Assembly: GCF_000280925.3 (NCBI RefSeq)
Contig: NZ_CP012109.1
Location: 2,686,501 to 2,750,500, forward strand
Direction: 5' to 3'
Length of the DNA: 64,000 nt
From: Myxococcus hansupus
GTDB lineage: Bacteria; Myxococcota; Myxococcia; Myxococcales; Myxococcaceae
Shown here: positions 13,670-22,967 of the stretch, piece by piece
Layout: each line of letters starts with the position of its first letter
How positions within the stretch are numbered: the stretch's first letter is position 1
Program-made: the position numbers and the translations under genes
Notes under the pieces: model-generated
Databases searched by the model: none
The model's input: the letters and a program-made list of their open reading frames with translations, nothing else
Told to the model about the DNA's origin: nothing

Positions 13670-13999
13670 ATGAGCCTCAACATCACGACCCAGCATGCCG
13701 TGCTGAAGAAGGAGATTGACCGAATCAACGCGGACAATCGCGTCTCCTTCTCCGAGTTCCAGCATGTCCGCGATGCGGCCGATACCCAGATCGAGAAGCT
13801 GAAGGCCCCGGAGCTGCAGGCGCACCTGAAGAAGCTTCAGAAGTCCGTCGATGATGCGGTCGAAGCGCTCCAGCAGGTGGCACTGGCGGCCAAGAAGGCC
13901 AAGCTCGATGAGCCCACCAAGGCGGCGCTGAAGGAGTCCACGTCCTACCAGATCGCCTACCTGGTCATGGGCTTCAAGACGAGCGTCGACCGGCTCTGA
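13670..13999 (+). CDS. Small helical hypothetical protein
   Basis: A 109-residue, almost wholly helical soluble protein. Residues 35-80 are rich in Lys/Leu/Ala/Glu with heptad-like spacing (IEKLKAPELQAHLKKLQKSVDDAVEAL), suggesting a short coiled coil. No catalytic motif is seen and no family is recognised. The start at ATG 13670 is well supported by AAGGAG at 13657-13662 with 7 bases of spacing. It stands alone between decayed genes and a strong hairpin at 14012-14040. Confidence 0.75.
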   Translation: MSLNITTQHAVLKKEIDRINADNRVSFSEFQHVRDAADTQIEKLKAPELQAHLKKLQKSVDDAVEALQQVALAAKKAKLDEPTKAALKESTSYQIAYLVMGFKTSVDRL

Positions 14000-14070: not shown

Positions 14071-15819
14071 CTAATCCGAGACGTCCGGAGGCAGCATGTC
14101 CTGGCAGCGGCGGAGGCCACGCTGGGCCTCCGCGAGCTGCGGGTAGTCACGCTTCAGCGCGCGGTAGAGCCCGATGGCCTCCTCGCAGCTTCCGTCGTTC
14201 TCCTTCGCGCGGGCACGCGTCATGCGCTTCGACGCGTCCTCGACCTTCCCGGCGAGCGCCATCAACTCGGGTTCGACCGCGTCCAGTCCCAGGCTCCGGG
14301 CCTGCGCCAGTCGCTTCATCGCGCTGTCCAGCCGGCCCTCGTTGAAGTCATTGCCGATGTCGATGACCTGGCCCGCCGCGAGCACCTTGAGCTGCTTCGC
14401 CGCGATGTCTCCGGTATCGGTCGGCACCGCGTGAGGTGCAGGCGCGGCTTCCGCGTGCGGAGCCGTGGCGGGAGGATGCGCCTGGGCGGGCTCACCCACG
14501 GGGACCAGCGTGCCGATCTTCGCGTCATCGCCGCCCCGCATCGCCACCACGCCCACGCCGCTCACCAGCAGGACGCCGGCGATGCCCAGCCCCACGACGA
14601 CCCCGGACCTCGAACGCGGAGGCGGCGTGTACGGCGAGGCCGCATGCGCCGTCTTGTTGAAGCCCTCCGGTCCCACCCGGAGCCCACCCTCTGGGGCAGG
14701 CTGCGTCAGGGGAATGGGCGCCGCGGCAGCGGGCGCGGCGTCCGCTGGGACGGTGCGCACCAGCGTGGCCTCCGAGCCCTCCGCCCCGAAGAGGAGCGTC
14801 GCCGGCCGCACCGGCTCCAGCCCGCCTCCGGTGACAGCGGGGTTGAGCCCGCTGACGGCGCGGCGGTTGGTGAGCGTGGGCAGCGCGTTCACCAGGTCCG
14901 ATGCGAAGGCCTCCATCGTGGCGTAGCGCTCCGCGCGGTTCTTCGCGGTGGCCTTCTGGATGACGGCGTCGACGCCCGGATGCTGGAGGTCCGCCACCGC
15001 CTGCGCCAGATGCGGCATGGGCTGGTGGACCTGCTTCTGCATGATTTCCGAGACGCTGGCGCCGTCGAAGGGCTGCTGTCCCGTGAGCAACTCGAAGAGG
15101 ACGATGCCCACCGCGTACACGTCCGCGCGGGCGTCCACGTCCAGGCCCATGGCCTGCTCGGGGGACATGTAGCGCGGCGTGCCCGCCACCGAGCCCTGGA
15201 TGGTGAGCCGCGTCGCGCCGTCCGCGATGCGAGCGATGCCGAAGTCGAGCACCTTCACGTGCCAACCCCGCATGCCCTGCCGGACCATGATGTTCTCCGG
15301 CTTGAGGTCGCGGTGGATGACCTGCCGGGCGTGGGCGTACGAGAGCACGTCCGCGACCTGGAGCACGATGTCCACGGCCTCATCGAGCGCGAGCCGCCCG
15401 CAGGTGGCGAGCAGGTGCTTGAGGTCGTCACCCTCCACGTACTCCATGGAGATGTAGAGCCCGCCGTCCTCGTCCTGCCCGAAGTCGTGCAGCGTGACGG
15501 CGTTCGGATGGGCGACGCGCGCGTAGCTCTTCGCCTCGTTGAGGAAGCGCCGGGCCACGTCCGGGTCCATGGACAGGCCGCTGTTGAGGAACTTCATGGC
15601 CACCTGCTGGCCAATGCCCACCTGCTCGGCGAGGTACACCGAGCCCATGCCACCCTGGCCCAGCCTCCGGAGGATGCGGAAGCGGCCGGCGACGACGCGC
15701 CCGAGCATCCGGTCCACCTGTGGGGCCACCGTCAGCAGCTCGGTGCCGCCACACGACGGACAGGCGCCGCCCCATTTCTCGTGCTGCGCCTCGCACCGCT
15801 GGCAGATGAAGAGGGACAT
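14071..15819 (-). CDS. Zinc-ribbon Ser/Thr protein kinase with TM and C-terminal helical domain
   Basis: A 582-residue eukaryote-like kinase. C6-x2-C9 and C20-x2-C23 form an N-terminal zinc ribbon. The kinase domain (about 45-310) has the Gly loop GQGGMGSV (54-61), Lys76 in AMK, catalytic HRDLKPEN (169-176) and DFG (192-194), so it should be active. After a Pro/Ala-rich linker a single membrane helix (VVVGLGIAGVLLVSGVGVVAM, near 410-430) places the C-terminal helical, TPR-like domain outside the cytoplasm. AAGGA lies 5 bases before ATG 15819. It is the last gene of an operon with the TPR protein (38-base gap) and the PEGA protein. The partners suggest the module senses or builds something at the envelope. 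Confidence 0.93.
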   Translation of the reverse strand: MSLFICQRCEAQHEKWGGACPSCGGTELLTVAPQVDRMLGRVVAGRFRILRRLGQGGMGSVYLAEQVGIGQQVAMKFLNSGLSMDPDVARRFLNEAKSYARVAHPNAVTLHDFGQDEDGGLYISMEYVEGDDLKHLLATCGRLALDEAVDIVLQVADVLSYAHARQVIHRDLKPENIMVRQGMRGWHVKVLDFGIARIADGATRLTIQGSVAGTPRYMSPEQAMGLDVDARADVYAVGIVLFELLTGQQPFDGASVSEIMQKQVHQPMPHLAQAVADLQHPGVDAVIQKATAKNRAERYATMEAFASDLVNALPTLTNRRAVSGLNPAVTGGGLEPVRPATLLFGAEGSEATLVRTVPADAAPAAAAPIPLTQPAPEGGLRVGPEGFNKTAHAASPYTPPPRSRSGVVVGLGIAGVLLVSGVGVVAMRGGDDAKIGTLVPVGEPAQAHPPATAPHAEAAPAPHAVPTDTGDIAAKQLKVLAAGQVIDIGNDFNEGRLDSAMKRLAQARSLGLDAVEPELMALAGKVEDASKRMTRARAKENDGSCEEAIGLYRALKRDYPQLAEAQRGLRRCQDMLPPDVSD

Positions 15820-15857
15820 CGCGTCCTTGCTGGGCAGAAGAGGGTGGGGCGTTGCTG

Positions 15858-16850
15858 TCAGCGCTGGGCCGGCGCGTAGCGCTGGAAGAGGAGCCGCTCC
15901 AGCTCGCGAGCCCCGGCTTCGGGGGACTGGCGCTGGGCGGACGCCGCGCGCAGCACGTCCGTGCGCGAGTCCTGGGGCAGGTCCGCTTCCATCACCGCGA
16001 GCGCCCCCGGCAGGTCTCCCGCGCGCTGGAGCGCGGCGGCGCGCCACACGCGGTACTCCGAGCGCTCGGGCGCGGCGGTGGCCGCCTGGGCGAACAGGCG
16101 CTGGGCCTCGGCGGTGTCGCCGTCCTGCAGCGCCGCCACCCCTTCCAGGAACGGCGCCTGGGAGGAGGCCTTCGCGTGCGGCGCGCCCATGTCGCGGGCC
16201 AGCGCGAACAGCGCGGCGCTCTCCCGCAGACGCTGGCTGGGGAGCGACTCTCCGGCCAGGGCGCGCTGGTGCGCGTCATCCGTGGTGGTGTGGCAGGCGG
16301 TGCTCAGCCGCGCGGCCATGTCGCCCAGGTCCGGGCCCAGGTAGCCCTCGGTGACGAGCGTGCGCAGCGTGTCGCCCGCGGCGTTCGGCCCCACGAGCTG
16401 CCCGTCTTCCAGCGCGGCGAAGAAGCCGGCCTTGAGCTCCACATGGCGCGCCGTCAGGTCCGCGGGCACCTTGTTGCGCTTGTTGCGCCGGGCGGCCTTC
16501 AACTTGCGCTCGCACAGCGACAGCTCGCGCTGGGCCTTCTTGCGGTCCTGGATGTCCGGCGCGCTGCGAACATAGGCGCGGTACGCGGTGCAGGCCCCGA
16601 AGACGTCCTTGGCGCCCATCCGCGCGCGGGCCAGCCCCAGGTAGGCGGGGAGGAGGGACGGGTTCGCGCGCGTGGCCAGGAGGAACCGCTCGGCGGCGTC
16701 CTTGTGCTTGCGCTTGTTGTAGAGCCGCGTGCCCTCGGCGAGCAGCGCGTCACCTTGTCCGACGGAGGGGCCCACCAGGGGCTCGGCCAGCGCGACACCG
16801 CACATCAACAGCGCACAGGCCCATGTCAGGCGCCGCAGGTCAGAACGCAT
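15858..16850 (-). CDS. Exported TPR-repeat protein
   Basis: A 330-residue protein with a signal peptide (MRSDLRRLTWACALLMCGVALA, likely cut after ALA). Two helical repeat blocks are visible. The first, residues about 35-110, has TPR-like spacing (LYNKRKHKDAAERFLLATRANPSLLPAYLGLA). The second is in the C-terminal half (FLEGVAALQDGDTAEAQRLFAQAATAAPERSEY and GDLPGALAVMEA). It should act as a periplasmic or outer-membrane-associated scaffold. The start overlaps the PEGA gene by 11 bases, and the Ser/Thr kinase follows, so all three are co-transcribed. Confidence 0.85.
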   Translation of the reverse strand: MRSDLRRLTWACALLMCGVALAEPLVGPSVGQGDALLAEGTRLYNKRKHKDAAERFLLATRANPSLLPAYLGLARARMGAKDVFGACTAYRAYVRSAPDIQDRKKAQRELSLCERKLKAARRNKRNKVPADLTARHVELKAGFFAALEDGQLVGPNAAGDTLRTLVTEGYLGPDLGDMAARLSTACHTTTDDAHQRALAGESLPSQRLRESAALFALARDMGAPHAKASSQAPFLEGVAALQDGDTAEAQRLFAQAATAAPERSEYRVWRAAALQRAGDLPGALAVMEADLPQDSRTDVLRAASAQRQSPEAGARELERLLFQRYAPAQR

Positions 16851-18390
16851 AACCCAGCCCTCCGCGAATGTTGCTCGTCCCGGCGATCTTGTTCAGCAGC
16901 GTGAAGCTGTGCTGGTACGCCACGGAGGCGTACAGGCCTTCGTACATGAAGACGCGCGCGGTGGCCTGCGCGGACGCGTGCAGGTCCAGCGCGTAGAGGC
17001 CGTCCTTGAAGATGGCCGCGTCGCGGGCGCGCTCCTTCATCAGCAGCCCGCGCCCCTCCAGGCCCGCCTGGAGGGAGAGGGACACCGGCCCCAGGACGTA
17101 GCGGAACTGAGGTTGGAGCGCGCGCAGCGACACCGCCTGCACCTGCGTGTCCAGCGCGGAGAGGCCCTCCGGGCCCACGCCGGGCACACCGGCGGGCACG
17201 TCGATGCCCAGCGTCCAGGTGTCTCCGGTGGACGCGTAGGTGGCGCCCACCAGCATGACGCCGAAGAACTGGCCATAGCGGCCGTACTCGATGCCCACGC
17301 CGCGCAGGTTGCGTGCGCTGGGGGCGCGCACGTCCTGGCTGCGCAGGTTCTCCAGCTCCGCGGAGGTGCTCAGCGGCTGGGACGTCAGCGACGCGCTGGT
17401 GAGGCGCTGCATCTCGAACGACGCTTCCAGGTAGCTCTGCCGCGCCATCGTCGCTTCCTTGCGGCGGCGCATGGCCAGCTTGAAGGACTGCATCGACGTG
17501 GGCGTCATCGTGTGCTCCAGCGTGAACGTGCCGCCGGGCGAAATCTCCGCCTTCTCCTCGTGGGGCTCGTAGCCGTCGAGCGTCAGCGACAGGATGCGCG
17601 TGCCGGGCTGGATGCCCTGGTCCACCGCCGTGGTGCCCACGGGCTGGCCGTCCACGCGAATCTCCGTGCCCTCCGGCTGCGCCTTCACCACCAGCCGCGC
17701 GGGCACCTTCTCCAGGGCCGCGGTCAGCTTCACCTGCTCGCGAGAGCCCACCACCCGCGTCTCTTCCTTGGGCAGGTGCGAGGCCATCTCGAACCGGAAG
17801 GTGTGCTCACCCGGCAGCACCTCCGTGTGGAAGGGCGTGGTGCCCACCTTGAGGCCGTCGATGAAGACGGTGGCGCCCGCGGGCGTCGTCTCCGCGTCCA
17901 CCGTGGCGTTGAGCGACAGGAACTTCACCAGCACGCCGGCCAGGGCCTTCTCGAAGGCGGGATTCGCCGTCTCCGCCTGTCCTCGCGCACCGGAGCCGGG
18001 GCGCACGCTGACGGCGCGGAAGCGGTAGCCCGCGTCGTCCTGGCCCACCTGCACCAGCACCACGCGCTCCAGGCCCAGCGAGTCCAGGTAGGACTCCAGC
18101 GGCTCGCGGCAGCGCGCCTCGCCGGACACGCAGCGCAAGTCGCCGGTGCGGCCCTTCAGGTGGCCCGTGAGCGCCTCACGGCCGATGAGCTGCTGTGCGC
18201 GCACGTCCTCGGGCAGCAGGGTGGCGATGCCTTCCTCGGTGCGCTGCAGCAAGGCGTCCTGGCCGGGGTACAGCGCCTGGACGAGCCACAAGGTGTGCGA
18301 GGGGGCGGGTGTCTGGGTGCCCGGAGGCAGTCCGGGTGCGGCGCCGGCGCTCAGCGCCAGGCTGACACTCAGGAGACAGGAGACGAACAT
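16840..18390 (-). CDS. Exported PEGA-domain protein
   Basis: A 516-residue secreted protein. The leader MFVSCLLSVSLALSAGAAPG is a signal peptide. Residues about 30-155 form an N-terminal domain that includes a Cys pair (C87, C94). Two PEGA-type beta-sandwich repeats follow at about 162-212 (PAGATVFIDGLKVGTTPF) and 231-285 (PEGTEIRVDGQPVGTTAV). The C-terminal 180 residues are rich in alternating aromatic and small residues and end in LGYAF, as in outer-membrane beta-barrel or surface-associated proteins. PEGA repeats occur in envelope proteins of many deltaproteobacteria. GAGG lies 5 bases before ATG 18390. It is the first gene of the PEGA-TPR-kinase operon. Confidence 0.85.
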   Translation of the reverse strand: MFVSCLLSVSLALSAGAAPGLPPGTQTPAPSHTLWLVQALYPGQDALLQRTEEGIATLLPEDVRAQQLIGREALTGHLKGRTGDLRCVSGEARCREPLESYLDSLGLERVVLVQVGQDDAGYRFRAVSVRPGSGARGQAETANPAFEKALAGVLVKFLSLNATVDAETTPAGATVFIDGLKVGTTPFHTEVLPGEHTFRFEMASHLPKEETRVVGSREQVKLTAALEKVPARLVVKAQPEGTEIRVDGQPVGTTAVDQGIQPGTRILSLTLDGYEPHEEKAEISPGGTFTLEHTMTPTSMQSFKLAMRRRKEATMARQSYLEASFEMQRLTSASLTSQPLSTSAELENLRSQDVRAPSARNLRGVGIEYGRYGQFFGVMLVGATYASTGDTWTLGIDVPAGVPGVGPEGLSALDTQVQAVSLRALQPQFRYVLGPVSLSLQAGLEGRGLLMKERARDAAIFKDGLYALDLHASAQATARVFMYEGLYASVAYQHSFTLLNKIAGTSNIRGGLGYAF

Positions 18391-18636
18391 GGCGTCCTCG
18401 GGGGAGGGGGCTTCGGCGCGACGGGCCGGCGGCCCCCAGCCATGGTGTACGCCAATGAACGCTGTCCTGCCTAGGGGGGAGGGCTGAGAACAGAGGGTTT
18501 TCTGGGAAGTCGATTCCCAGAGGGCTCCTGCCCGCCTGCTCTCCGGGCGCATGCGAGGAAGCTGGGGGCTGGAGGTCGCCTGGGGTGTGGGGAATGCGCA
18601 TCGTTCCGCAGGTCGCAACACCTCCGAGGAGGCGGA

Positions 18637-19716
18637 ATGGTTCTCCCTGGCAAGGGAATGAGCTGGAAGCGGTTCTTCATCGCGTTGAAGGACGAGTGGG
18701 CTCGCGACGACGTGGAGGATGTCGCCGGCGCGCTCACGTTCCGGGTGATTCTGGCGCTCTTCCCGTTCCTGCTGTTCCTGGTGTCGCTGGCGGGGCTCCT
18801 CATCGAACCGGCGCAGGCCCAGGCGCTCATCCAGGAGCTGGCGCGGGTGGCGCCGCGGGAAGTGACGACGATTCTCAGCGAGCGCATCGATGCGTTGGCG
18901 GAGAGCCGGCCGGTGGGGCTGCTGACGGTGGGCGGTGTCGGCGCCGTCTGGGCGGCGTCCAAGGGCGTGGCGGCGCTGATGAAGGCGCTCAACAAGGTCT
19001 ACGGCGTGACGGAGTCCCGACCCGTCTGGAAGCAGAAGGGCACGGCGGTGCTGGTGACGCTGGGCGGCGCGGCGGTGGCCATCCTCGCGGCGGTCGCCGT
19101 CGTCGTGACGCCTGTCATCGCCGGCAAGCTGCCCGGTGCGTTGGGCACGGTGCTGATGTGGCTGCGCCTCCCGGTGGCCGGCCTGCTGATGATGTCCCTG
19201 TGGGCCGTGCTGTACTACGTGCTGCCGGACGTGAAGCAGCGGTTCCGCTTCATCACCCCGGGCTCGGTGGTGGGCGTGCTCATCTGGGTGGTGGCGTCGT
19301 GGGGCTTCTCCAAGTACGTCGCCAACTTCGGCAGCTACGACGTCAACTATGGCGCCATCGGCGGTGTCATCGTCATGCTGCTGTGGATGTGGCTCTCCGC
19401 GATGGTCGTGCTGCTGGGCGCGGAGATCAACGCCATCCTCGAGCACCGCTCCCCGGACGGGAAGGCGCCGGGCCAGAAGGTCCCCGAGCAGGGCAAGGCC
19501 TTGACGGCCACCAAGACGGAGCTGGAGGAGGGGGGCGCGGAGCTGCCGGGTGCCCCGGGCTTCCGGCCCACGGTGGACCCGGTGACGGGCAAGCCCCTGG
19601 ACGGGCCACCCGCCATGCCGCCTCGGCTGCGCGATACGCCGCTCGCGGCGGCCTTCAAGTGGACGGCGGGCCTCGGGTTGGGATTGTTCCTGCTGCGCAG
19701 GTCGTCGACCCGGTAG
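18637..19716 (+). CDS. YihY/UPF0761 family membrane protein
   Basis: A 359-residue inner-membrane protein of the YihY (formerly BrkB) family. It has the family layout of six membrane helices: an early segment FRVILALFPFLLFLVSLAGLL, then VLVTLGGAAVAILAAVAVVVTP, LPVAGLLMMSLWAVLYYVLPD, VVGVLIWVVASWGFSKYVANF and GVIVMLLWMWLSAMVVLLGAEIN. The YVLPDVKQRFRFITPGSVVG stretch and NYGAIGG motif are diagnostic. The C-terminal 90 residues are hydrophilic and end with a short hydrophobic patch. The function is not settled for the family. A strong GAGGAGG-type site lies 5 bases before ATG 18637. Confidence 0.92.
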   Translation: MVLPGKGMSWKRFFIALKDEWARDDVEDVAGALTFRVILALFPFLLFLVSLAGLLIEPAQAQALIQELARVAPREVTTILSERIDALAESRPVGLLTVGGVGAVWAASKGVAALMKALNKVYGVTESRPVWKQKGTAVLVTLGGAAVAILAAVAVVVTPVIAGKLPGALGTVLMWLRLPVAGLLMMSLWAVLYYVLPDVKQRFRFITPGSVVGVLIWVVASWGFSKYVANFGSYDVNYGAIGGVIVMLLWMWLSAMVVLLGAEINAILEHRSPDGKAPGQKVPEQGKALTATKTELEEGGAELPGAPGFRPTVDPVTGKPLDGPPAMPPRLRDTPLAAAFKWTAGLGLGLFLLRRSSTR

Positions 19717-19780: not shown

Positions 19781-19928
19781 GGGCTTGCGAAGCGCCTACT
19801 CCGAGTGAGAGTGTGCGCGCCTTGTTGACTGGACGACACGGCTGTCGTCGTCCACTGGCACCCCCTCGGACACTCCCCCGCACCCCGATTGCCTGGCGCA
19901 CGGCCGACGTGTGCCCCTTGGAGTTTCG
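19781..19928 (+). repeat. Duplicated leader, copy 1 (copy 2 at 23044-23197)
   Basis: The stretch from GGGCTTGCGA to the start codon of the lipoprotein gene recurs before its paralogue at 23044-23197. Identity is highest at the outer end (TACTCCGAGTG) and in the last 40 bases, including the ribosome site CCTTGGAG and TTTCG before ATG. The duplication therefore carried the 5' control region as well as the gene. Confidence 0.75.
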
Positions 19929-22900
19929 ATGTCCCCGACGCTTTCCTGGCCCCTGCGCTGTGGCGCGGTGCTTCTCGCCGCGCAGCTCGTCCTCGCGTGT
20001 GGTGGTGGGGGTGGGCAACAACCGCCTCCGCCTTCCGATCTCACGCCGCCCACGACGCGCGTGACGCCCGCGGGAGGGGAGTTCACCAACTCCGTGGCGG
20101 TGACGCTGACGTGTGATGACGGAAGTGGCAGCGGCTGCGCGGCCACGTACTACACGCTGGATGGCACGACGCCCGGCACCGGCTCCACGCAATATCGCGA
20201 GCCCTTCACGCTGGGGAGCACCACCACGGTGCGCTTCTACTCCCTGGACGCGGCGGGCAACGCGGAGGCGCCGGGGACGGTGACCTTCACGCTGGTGGGG
20301 GCGGGGGACACGGCGGCGCCCACCACGGTGGCCAGCCCCGCGGGTGGCGCGTTCAACAGCCCCCGGAACGTCACGCTGACGTGCTCCGACGGCGAGGGTT
20401 CTGGCTGCGCGGCCACGCACTACACGCTGGATGGCAGCGTGCCCACGCTGGCCTCGCCGCGCTACACGGCGCCCGTCTCCATCTCCACCTCCGCCACGCT
20501 GCGCTTCTTCTCCGTGGACCGGGTGGGCAACCTCGAGGCGGTGCAGCAGGCTCGCTATGTCGTGGACACCCAGGCGCCCCAGGTGGTGGCGGCTCCCAGG
20601 GGAGGGGGCTTCACCACGTCGCGCGCCGTCACGCTGTCGTGTGACGACGGCGAGGGCAGCGGCTGCGCGGCCATCCACTACACCACCAACGGCAGCCTTC
20701 CCTCGCTGGACTCCGCCATCTACCAGGAGCCGCTGCTGCTGACGGCCACCACCCGCGTGCGGTTCATCGCGGTGGACTTCGTGGGCAATGTCTCCGACGT
20801 GGTGTCGGAGCAGTACACGCGCGACGCCTCGGTGGAGGATCGCACCGCGCCCACGACGGTGGCCTCACCCGCGGGCGGTGTCTACTGGAGCGCCCAGTCC
20901 GTCGTCCTGTCGTGCACGGACGACGCGGTGGGCAGTGGCTGCGCGGGCACGTACTACACGGTCGATGGCAGCGCGCCGACGACGTCCAGCATCCGCTATA
21001 CGGGGCCCGTCTCCGTGACGCCCCCCACCACGCTGCGTTTCTTCTCCATGGACCTCGCCGGCAACGTCGAGGTCGCCAAGTCCGAGCAGTACACGCTGGA
21101 CACGACGCCGCCGGTGACGACGGCCTCGCCCTCGGGCGGCGTCTATCAGGAGGCTGTCTCCGTGACGTTGGCGTGCAGTGACACGGCTTCGGGCTGCGCC
21201 GAGACGCGCTACACGCTGGATGGCTCCTCGCCCACCGCGAGCTCGCCGCGGTACGAGGGGCCCATTACCCTCACGCGCACCTTGATGCTGCGCTTCGCCT
21301 CCACCGACGTGGCGGGCAACGTGGAGTCAGCGAAGCAGGAGTCCTACGTCCTGCCCGAGCTGGACCGGCAGGCCTCCGAGCAGATTCTGGCCGTGCGCAA
21401 CGCTGTGAATGGCACGGTGAACCTCGTCATCCACGGCGCCTGGATTACGTACATCAAGCAAGGCGTGGGCAACCTGGCGAACGACCCGGCGGGCTTCTTC
21501 CTCCAAGCGGAGCGGACGGGGCCAGCCTTGTTCGTTCCGGTGGACCCGTCGACGCTGACGCCCGTGCCGCACGTGGGAGACCGGGTGCGCGTCACGGTGA
21601 ACGCGAAGAACGTCGTCAATGGCCAGGTGCGGGCGACCCTCTCCGGCCTCAGCGTGCTCAGCCGGGATGCGTCGGTGTCGGCGCTCCTCCAGGATGTCAG
21701 CGCGGTGGACGTCACCTCCGGCGGGACACAGCCTGACTATGAGTCCGAATACGTCTCCATCACCGGCACCATCGGCGCGCCTGGCTTCTCCGCCTCCGGT
21801 GACGGGCACCTCCAGGCACCGTTGACGACGGTGGGGGTTCCCTCCGGGTCGACGTCCGCGGCCTCGCTGCGGCTGCGGCTGGTGGAGCCCCTCCGCGACG
21901 ACCTGGCCCTCACATCGGGATGCGAGGTGACGGTGACGTCGCCGCTCTGGGTGTTCATGTCGGGGACGCAGACGCGGCCCGCCATCCAGGCCTCCGGGTG
22001 GAAGGCGAGCGATGTCACGGTTCGCGCGTGTCCCGCCCCTCGCGTCATCAACGCGTGGGCCCCGGGCCGCAACACGGTCATGGTGCGGTTCGGTCGGCCG
22101 CTCGAGCCGACATCGCTGGTGGCCAATGGCAGCCAGTTCTCCATCTCGGGGCTGAACGTCACGCAGGCTCGGTTGGAGACCGACACCGTGGTCGCGCTGA
22201 CCACCAGCGACCAGGCCCCCCGCCAGTCGTATGCCATCACCGTGGCGACCACGATTCGGGACAGGCTCGGCGTCCATCTCGACTCCATGGCGACCCAGAC
22301 CACCTTCGCTGGCTATGTCCGGACGGCCCGGTTGCGCCTGAGCGAGGTGGCGCCCAACGTCCCCAATGGCAGGGACCTGGTGGAGCTCCTCGTCCGGGAG
22401 GGAGGCTCCACCGGGGGCGCCACGCTGATGGATGGCAACGCGACACTGGCGACGTTGCCGGACGTCGAGGTGGCCGCGGGAGACATCATCGTGGTCCATC
22501 TCAACCCGGACCGGGTGACGCCGGGGGTGGACGCGCCGGCCTCCGAGACGCTCGGCAAGACGCAGTATCCGGCGTCCAGCTACAGCTCGAACTACGACAA
22601 CGCCTGGGACTTTCATGGCACGACGTTGGGGGTGGGGACTGGCAACCGGACCCTGCGCATCCGGGATGCCTTTGAGGTCACCCAGGATGGTGTGGCGCTC
22701 GTCGTGACGGGCAACACCTTCGCGGGCTACCCGGCGCTGCTCCAGGCGCTCCAGAGCGAAGGGCACTGGTTCCCGACGACCTGTTCCGGCGTGCCGTGTA
22801 CGTATGAATCCAGCCCCTCGGCCCTCGATGTCTCGTTCGACTGGGGGATGGCTTTCTATTACGCGGGCCGCGAGTACACGCTTCAGCGCAATGGCACCAT

Positions 22901-22967
22901 GGATAACGGCAACCGAGGGGACTGGAAGGTGGACTACGCCACGCTGGGTGCGCCCAATCTCCATTAA
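19929..22967 (+). CDS. Repeat lipoprotein with chitobiase-C-like repeats and lamin-tail-like domain
   Basis: A 1012-residue lipoprotein. The leader MSPTLSWPLRCGAVLLAAQLVLAC ends in a lipobox (LVLAC) followed by GGGGG. Five repeats of about 88 residues follow, each with PTT-x-V-x-P-x-GG-x-(F/Y), TLTCDD, SGCA-x-YTLDG and TTLRF-x-S-x-D-x-AGN, matching the chitobiase/beta-hexosaminidase C-terminal-like fold. Next is an OB-fold-like region (GFFLQAE, VGDRVRVTVNAK), a bacterial Ig-like segment (NTVMVRFGRPLEPTS) and a C-terminal lamin-tail-like domain (LRLSEVAPNVPNGRDLVELLV). It is probably displayed on the outer surface, perhaps for adhesion or nucleic-acid/polysaccharide binding. TTGGAG fixes the start at ATG 19929. 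The gene at 23198 is a tandem paralogue. Confidence 0.9.
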   Translation: MSPTLSWPLRCGAVLLAAQLVLACGGGGGQQPPPPSDLTPPTTRVTPAGGEFTNSVAVTLTCDDGSGSGCAATYYTLDGTTPGTGSTQYREPFTLGSTTTVRFYSLDAAGNAEAPGTVTFTLVGAGDTAAPTTVASPAGGAFNSPRNVTLTCSDGEGSGCAATHYTLDGSVPTLASPRYTAPVSISTSATLRFFSVDRVGNLEAVQQARYVVDTQAPQVVAAPRGGGFTTSRAVTLSCDDGEGSGCAAIHYTTNGSLPSLDSAIYQEPLLLTATTRVRFIAVDFVGNVSDVVSEQYTRDASVEDRTAPTTVASPAGGVYWSAQSVVLSCTDDAVGSGCAGTYYTVDGSAPTTSSIRYTGPVSVTPPTTLRFFSMDLAGNVEVAKSEQYTLDTTPPVTTASPSGGVYQEAVSVTLACSDTASGCAETRYTLDGSSPTASSPRYEGPITLTRTLMLRFASTDVAGNVESAKQESYVLPELDRQASEQILAVRNAVNGTVNLVIHGAWITYIKQGVGNLANDPAGFFLQAERTGPALFVPVDPSTLTPVPHVGDRVRVTVNAKNVVNGQVRATLSGLSVLSRDASVSALLQDVSAVDVTSGGTQPDYESEYVSITGTIGAPGFSASGDGHLQAPLTTVGVPSGSTSAASLRLRLVEPLRDDLALTSGCEVTVTSPLWVFMSGTQTRPAIQASGWKASDVTVRACPAPRVINAWAPGRNTVMVRFGRPLEPTSLVANGSQFSISGLNVTQARLETDTVVALTTSDQAPRQSYAITVATTIRDRLGVHLDSMATQTTFAGYVRTARLRLSEVAPNVPNGRDLVELLVREGGSTGGATLMDGNATLATLPDVEVAAGDIIVVHLNPDRVTPGVDAPASETLGKTQYPASSYSSNYDNAWDFHGTTLGVGTGNRTLRIRDAFEVTQDGVALVVTGNTFAGYPALLQALQSEGHWFPTTCSGVPCTYESSPSALDVSFDWGMAFYYAGREYTLQRNGTMDNGNRGDWKVDYATLGAPNLH

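Follow-up and report, generated by a model that had tools for sequence, protein, structure and literature searches.

The window analysed here is a 64-kb stretch of the single-contig, 9.49-Mb genome of the soil myxobacterium Myxococcus hansupus (contig NZ_CP012109.1), and three consecutive genes on its reverse strand appear, on balance, to encode one envelope-spanning sensor or signalling module. They specify a PEGA protein with a predicted outer-membrane barrel (516 amino acids, positions 16840-18390), an exported, putatively periplasmic TPR protein (330 amino acids, 15858-16850) and a predicted membrane Ser/Thr kinase of the Hanks type (582 amino acids, 14071-15819). All three were assigned from their reading frames and Pfam matches, and the first and third also from structural models. 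The start of the TPR gene overlaps the PEGA gene by 11 bases and the kinase gene lies 38 bases further on, a linkage described in an earlier, sequence-only reading of this DNA and confirmed by the reading frames of the window. A shared function of the three genes is strongly supported by the comparison with relatives given below.

Conservation of the three genes

Relatives were surveyed in 145 genomes of the order to which the window belongs; absences rest on a first look, which scored up to 31 candidates in each genome for the C-terminal tail of the kinase and up to 15 for the TPR protein. Of the 145 genomes, 49 contain an orthologue of the PEGA protein, with expectation values (E) at or below 1e-57 and some matches split in two pieces; 51 contain the TPR family, with E at or below 8e-25; and 49 contain the kinase-tail family, with E at or below 2e-15. 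The genomes with the tail are those with the TPR gene, except for G049 and G050, where a contig end cuts the kinase, and the 94 genomes that lack the TPR gene gave no tail match better than 1.2e-8. With contig ends allowed for, the presence and absence of the TPR gene and of the kinase agree across the 145 genomes. Three genomes of the window's own genus (G098, G099 and G100, 99-100% complete) are without all three genes. When a TPR profile was run against 195 genomes of the whole phylum, the family (E at or below 2e-59) turned up in the 51 genomes already found, and the 50 genomes outside the order lacked it; the strongest of the remaining matches was at 9e-11.

Gene order was read in the loci of 51 genomes that have the PEGA or the TPR gene, that of the window excluded. 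The two genes stand together in 47 of these loci; the other four are G143, which has the PEGA gene only, and G138, G130 and G054, where the contig stops within the TPR gene. With starts chosen by aligning to those of the window, the 11-base overlap recurs in 44 of the 47, the rest having a 14-base overlap or gaps of 9 and 82 bases. The kinase gene follows the TPR gene on the same strand in 48 of 50 loci, which with the window makes 49 of the 51 TPR-bearing genomes, and 45 of the 48 spacings lie between -1 and 45 bases (the others are 93, 140 and 532, and for six of the 48 loci the figure is approximate, since the contig stops inside a gene). The orthologous kinase of G091 and of G137 sits on a different contig with its zinc ribbon, its tail and the cysteine pair of the tail all present, and in G091 it keeps an LpxL-type gene behind it. 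Because these two genomes retain the kinase at a separate place, joint retention is not merely a matter of linkage. The sequence-only reading had proposed a search for this gene order among relatives, and had named rarity of the neighbourhood as what would undo its idea of a module; order, overlap and joint presence or absence all turned out to be conserved, and the idea stands.

The proteins of the trio diverge down to about 35% identity among relatives, and the trio is kept while the immediately flanking genes differ between clades. Close copies occur as well: the PEGA protein is 96% identical in one genome of the window's genus (G107:C7), and the window's TPR gene shares 84% identity with that of a record under the name M. 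xanthus AM003. A collection of named records yielded 34 loci, many of them on the same contigs as in the order-level set, from 11 isolates and 23 metagenome assemblies. By their labels, nine of the isolates are Myxococcus or Pyxidicoccus, one is Citreicoccus and one Comamonas. The last, titled Comamonas sp. KCTC 72670 (L101, BNCN01000007.1), carries the operon with a TPR protein 93% identical, and the record looks mislabelled.

The kinase

The kinase consists of a zinc ribbon (residues 6-23), a kinase domain (about 45-315), a Pro/Ala-rich linker, a membrane helix (about 406-425) and a helical tail (470-582), the last 115 residues of which (14074-14418, reverse strand) served as the basis of tail profile A7. 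The kinase domain matches Pfam Pkinase at 5.6e-50, and all of the 31 orthologues aligned keep K76, E95, the HRD motif at 169-171 and the DFG motif at 192-194. By these motifs it is a kinase of the receptor-type Hanks group, with catalytic activity predicted. The four cysteines of the zinc ribbon (C6, C9, C20 and C23) are likewise invariant in 31 of 31, and its Pfam match is weak (Zn_ribbon_LapB, 0.033, below the cut-off). An AlphaFold model of the kinase, with a mean predicted local distance difference test score (pLDDT) of 74.8, places a disordered linker between the catalytic domain and the membrane helix. Confidence is low at helix 406-425 (pLDDT about 44-56), where the hydropathy peak is 2.55. 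In the tail, residues 470-575 form five helices, the first starting at residue 470, and blocks within 481-570 reach pLDDT values of 88-95. A single membrane helix followed by an extracytoplasmic C-terminal domain, the layout of a receptor-type kinase, is thus predicted. The sequence-only reading had described the kinase as having both an N-terminal zinc ribbon and an extracytoplasmic helical tail, and the invariant cysteines and modelled helices are in line with this description.

The closest solved kinase domains found by Foldseek with the kinase model are those of PknB and Stk1, and with the whole model only kinases were among the matches listed. The NCBIfam model for PASTA kinases (NF033483) scored 313 against a cut-off of 450, over residues 40-316 only, and no PASTA domain was present among Pfam matches to E 1. 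Judged by its parts, the protein is a receptor-type Hanks kinase and not a PASTA kinase; nor is it a kinase-PEGA fusion, the PEGA and kinase domains lying in separate reading frames. PADLOC matched the kinase with 36 models, among those listed mostly PD-T4-6, with most matches ending near residue 300-340 and three extending to residues 368, 463 and 464; neither the PEGA protein nor the TPR protein was matched. We considered an anti-phage label on the strength of PD-T4-6 and set it aside, as the matches look like generic kinase-domain similarity.

The window's genome has Pfam Pkinase matches at 101 places. Among the 25 readable kinase frames of the best 30 of these 101 loci, two have an N-terminal zinc ribbon, one of them being the kinase described here. 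PEGA domains occur in 30 frames; 16 of them also hold a kinase domain (matched by equal open-frame length and position), so that PEGA often goes with kinases in this genome. The PEGA gene of the trio is the only unfused PEGA frame within 3 kb of a kinase in the genome.

The C-terminal residue of the kinase is Glu or Asp in 28 of 31 rows of the alignment, compared with 6 of 17 complete other kinase frames of the genome. The tail of Hsp90 is a precedent for an acidic C-terminus as a TPR ligand. As the rows are related to each other, such a role for the end of the kinase is a lead only.

The PEGA protein and the TPR protein

Both the PEGA protein and the TPR protein begin with signal-peptide-like N-termini, as read directly from their sequences. 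In the PEGA protein the signal peptide is followed by a PelC-like alpha/beta domain (residues 33-158), two PEGA stretches (about 162-225 and 231-294; Pfam 2.6e-19), a helix (299-316) and a C-terminal barrel (319-515). Its model has a mean pLDDT of 83.3, and a reading of the DSSP line gives eight long and two short strands for residues 319-515. When this region was compared with solved structures using VIA-align, it matched OmpW (8qxp; Z = 17.3, 160 residues, root mean square deviation (r.m.s.d.) = 3.1), OprF (4rlc; Z = 16.9, 132 residues, r.m.s.d. = 2.2) and OmpA (Z = 15.9). The protein ends in GYAF, an aromatic terminus as in barrels of the OmpA/OmpW type. An eight-stranded barrel of this type is thus predicted at the level of fold, with an outer-membrane location predicted as well. 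The first domain of the protein aligned to PelC (5t10_A) with Z = 9.5 over 103 residues and an r.m.s.d. of 3.0, values not far above the chance level of the tool, and the first PEGA domain aligned to several domains, including a transthyretin-like one, at Z of about 9-10. By sequence, the PEGA profile found no match among PDB chains at E 0.1, and the protein has no match in PHROGs.

An eight-stranded barrel has both of its ends in the periplasm. Since the PEGA domains precede a barrel of this kind, the model places them most likely in the periplasm and not on the surface. The description of the PEGA protein as "surface or barrel-like" in the sequence-only reading is thereby narrowed: the barrel is upheld by the model, and the surface location is not.

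For the TPR protein, the matches to Pfam's TPR families range from 1e-5 to 1e-4 and do not reach the curated cut-offs, and PHROGs gives one weak match.

In the exported parts of the three proteins, one pair of cysteines per protein is conserved in every aligned orthologue, and these are the only such cysteines: C87/C94 of the PEGA protein (32 of 32), C87/C113 of the TPR protein (32 of 32) and C545/C572 of the kinase tail (31 of 31). The pairs would fit disulphides in oxidised extracytoplasmic domains, and their invariance supports the proposed topology. The pairs of the TPR protein and of the tail are each 26-27 residues apart. Profile comparison gave no evidence that the two regions are homologous: hhalign assigned a probability of 7.7% to the whole tail as a relative of the TPR protein, and 0.3% (global) or 1.1% (local) to the two cysteine hairpins alone.

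Neighbouring genes

A BrkB/YihY-family gene (18637-19716, forward strand) runs divergently from the trio, and the intergenic region between them (18391-18636) is, by layout only, the likely place of the operon promoter. Scans of the operon for sigma-70-type promoters, terminators and Rfam families gave no match; such bacteria also use other promoter types, so the empty sigma-70 scan says little. Further along the forward strand lies a long exported protein with repeated units of the TLDGSxPT type (19911-22967), which 20 of the 23 further genomes of the genus also have close to the operon (two of them in part), as do both genomes of genus g5. On the other side, a small helical protein (13673-13996, forward strand) is convergent to the kinase gene and, of 51 loci compared, occurs nearby in L041 only.

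The flanks of the trio separate its relatives into two sets; the distances given here refer to protein-match edges. The divergent BrkB/YihY gene adjoins the trio in the 25 relatives that belong to genera g1 and g5 (Myxococcus/Citreicoccus); it was not found in the 25 loci outside these genera, among which the contig ends inside the kinase in two and the kinase is elsewhere in two. In these latter loci an LpxL-type lipid A acyltransferase gene starts -30 to +60 bases from the end of the block, that is of the kinase, in 17 of 25, and about 1 kb on in two more. Ten of the 25 have a GDSL lipase at a distance of about 0.9-1.0 kb upstream and one has it 2.6 kb upstream, and downstream on the opposite strand there is a barrel-like protein in nine and a LolA-like protein in eight (both named from sequence reading). 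An Fpg/MutM-like DNA glycosylase gene was seen upstream on the same strand in 20 of these loci (L066-L091), within 120 bases in 18. The Fpg-like, LpxL-type, GDSL, barrel-like and LolA-like families had no match in the 25 g1/g5 loci, and the window's genome has no close Fpg match (28-30% identical). In L067, from a distant family, an ABC exporter gene that reads as MsbA-like lies 674 bases upstream of the PEGA gene on the same strand. What had looked like a conserved family around it was discarded, since it mixes unrelated ABC-ATPase proteins whose distances differ (0.7-6 kb). No polymer synthase or polymer-modification gene was recognised among the multi-genus neighbours read, up to about 6 kb on each side, where not every neighbour was classified.

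Proposed mechanism and alternatives

The arrangement that we favour would run from the outer membrane to the cytoplasm. The PEGA protein would be held in the outer membrane by its eight-stranded barrel, with the PelC-like and PEGA domains reaching into the periplasm, and the exported TPR protein would be the scaffold that links it, across the periplasm, to the inner membrane. The kinase would cross the inner membrane once, with a disulphide-stapled tail facing the periplasm and the zinc ribbon and catalytic domain facing the cytoplasm. By touching one another, the tail, the TPR protein and the outer-membrane arm may set the oligomeric state of the kinase and hence its activity, so that damage to or change in the outer membrane, lipid A being the best guess, could be turned into phosphorylation of cytoplasmic Ser/Thr residues. 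It is because of the LpxL-type and lipase neighbours in other genera that a signal from the outer membrane or from lipid A is proposed. That signal belongs to the inferred parts of the scheme, as do the disulphides, the physical complex, the direction of signalling, the substrates and the role of the zinc ribbon. That the trio forms a dedicated line from the outer membrane to the cytoplasm, ending in a zinc-ribbon Ser/Thr kinase and monitoring the outer membrane or lipid A, is a tentative proposal to which we give somewhat less than even weight, and the reading of the three genes as one envelope-spanning sensor or signalling module is held at slightly better than even weight.

Several observations weigh against this arrangement. 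The kinase tail is the fastest-evolving part: in other genera it is 15-29% identical to that of the window (alignment A7), against 42-50% for the TPR protein at the same loci (alignment A6, Citreicoccus excepted), and in two Citreicoccus-group genomes it is 29% identical, against 70% for the TPR protein and 66-67% for the PEGA protein. Divergence of this kind does not look like that of a fixed, tightly co-evolving interface, and the profile comparison of tail and TPR protein is weak (7.7% probability, as given above). With the distance of the kinase domain removed, partial rank correlations of the tail with the TPR and PEGA proteins were 0.31 and 0.50 (43 sequence sets, the pairs of which are not independent), similar to the 0.48 between the TPR and PEGA proteins, a result that speaks neither for nor against contact. 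The trio is missing from 94 of the 145 genomes of the order, which implies that its function is dispensable or replaced there, and one genome of a distant family (G143, locus L070) has the PEGA barrel gene alone, without the TPR protein or kinase tail. The signal itself rests on neighbours in other genera, and the best LpxL-like match in the window's genome sits elsewhere and is 49% identical. Of the one-operon sensor put forward in the sequence-only reading, the predicted architecture fits; its further idea, of a tail that senses the complex formed by the other two proteins, is a conjecture, and the tail is the fastest-evolving part and not recognisably related to the TPR protein.

The same parts could work in the opposite direction, with the PEGA and TPR proteins building an outer-membrane complex for structure or transport, and the kinase, docked through its tail and reading no outside signal, regulating or checking assembly and phosphorylating cytoplasmic enzymes, for example those of lipid A or envelope synthesis. 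The PelC-like domain, TPR protein and barrel resemble parts of an outer-membrane export complex, and the LpxL-type and GDSL-lipase neighbours suggest envelope building. In G091 and G137, moreover, the PEGA and TPR genes stay paired after the kinase has left the locus, in G091 for a place beside an LpxL-type gene. A link to transport is also conceivable, given the ABC-ATPase proteins lying 0.7-6 kb away at varied places, among them that of L067, which is upstream of the PEGA gene by 674 bases. Export systems, however, use large barrels, whereas this one aligns with the eight-stranded OmpA/OmpW type, and the conserved neighbours read include no recognised polymer synthase; we consider this direction unlikely, if still deserving of attention.

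Fast divergence of the tail without a clear signal of co-evolution, together with the retention of the PEGA gene alone in G143, would also suit genes that are co-regulated and physically uncoupled, in which case the kinase would have a ligand of its own and the PEGA and TPR proteins would act elsewhere in the envelope. Near-perfect joint presence and loss over the 145 genomes, unlinked kinases included, and the long-kept 11-base overlap argue against this explanation, which we regard as rather improbable. A chance neighbourhood inherited from recent common descent, with no shared function, could be proposed on the grounds that the orthologues are confined to one order among the genomes searched and that PEGA domains and kinases are numerous in the genome. 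It is very improbable, as the flanking genes change between clades while the trio stays, the proteins have diverged to about 35% identity, and kinases that are retained yet unlinked contradict it.

Relation to known systems

The trio kinase shares with the PASTA kinases PknB and Stk1 a cytoplasmic catalytic domain, a single membrane helix and an extracytoplasmic sensor domain; it differs from them in having no PASTA domain, and in its zinc ribbon, helical tail and fixed barrel and TPR partner genes. As in the 16 kinase-PEGA fusions of the genome, PEGA domains are tied to a Ser/Thr kinase, but in the trio they belong to a separate barrel protein.

Two envelope systems also invite comparison. 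In the Rcs system of E. coli (OmpA/RcsF/IgaA), an outer-membrane barrel with a periplasmic domain and an inner-membrane protein help to report envelope damage (PMC7553776), and an outer-membrane barrel protein signalling towards an inner-membrane protein may serve as a working analogy for the trio. Unlike the trio, Rcs uses a lipoprotein and ends in a phosphorelay. That phosphorelay runs through a histidine kinase. The PelBC complex for exopolysaccharide export combines a PelC fold with an outer-membrane barrel (PMC12141448), and the trio has a predicted outer-membrane barrel and a domain that may be PelC-like. Unlike PelBC, the trio has its PelC-like domain fused to PEGA domains and a small barrel, a kinase in the operon and no recognised gene for polymer synthesis. 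PelB also carries TPR repeats. By analogy, then, the trio resembles Rcs in its putative working and PelBC in its parts, a likeness that does not by itself establish membership in either. No description of the operon was found in PubMed Central full text, which was the literature covered, and the sequence-only reading, too, knew of no named system composed in this way.

To our knowledge, most Ser/Thr kinases of myxobacteria have no known input signal. The trio gives one of about a hundred such kinases in this genome fixed envelope partners and a predicted outer-membrane anchor, and allows a route from an outer-membrane event to a cytoplasmic Ser/Thr kinase to be tested in an organism that is harmless and amenable to genetics. 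If the proposal is true, it would represent a new means by which such a myxobacterium senses the condition of its outer surface, and a Hanks-kinase counterpart of Rcs that is confined, as far as searched, to one myxobacterial order.

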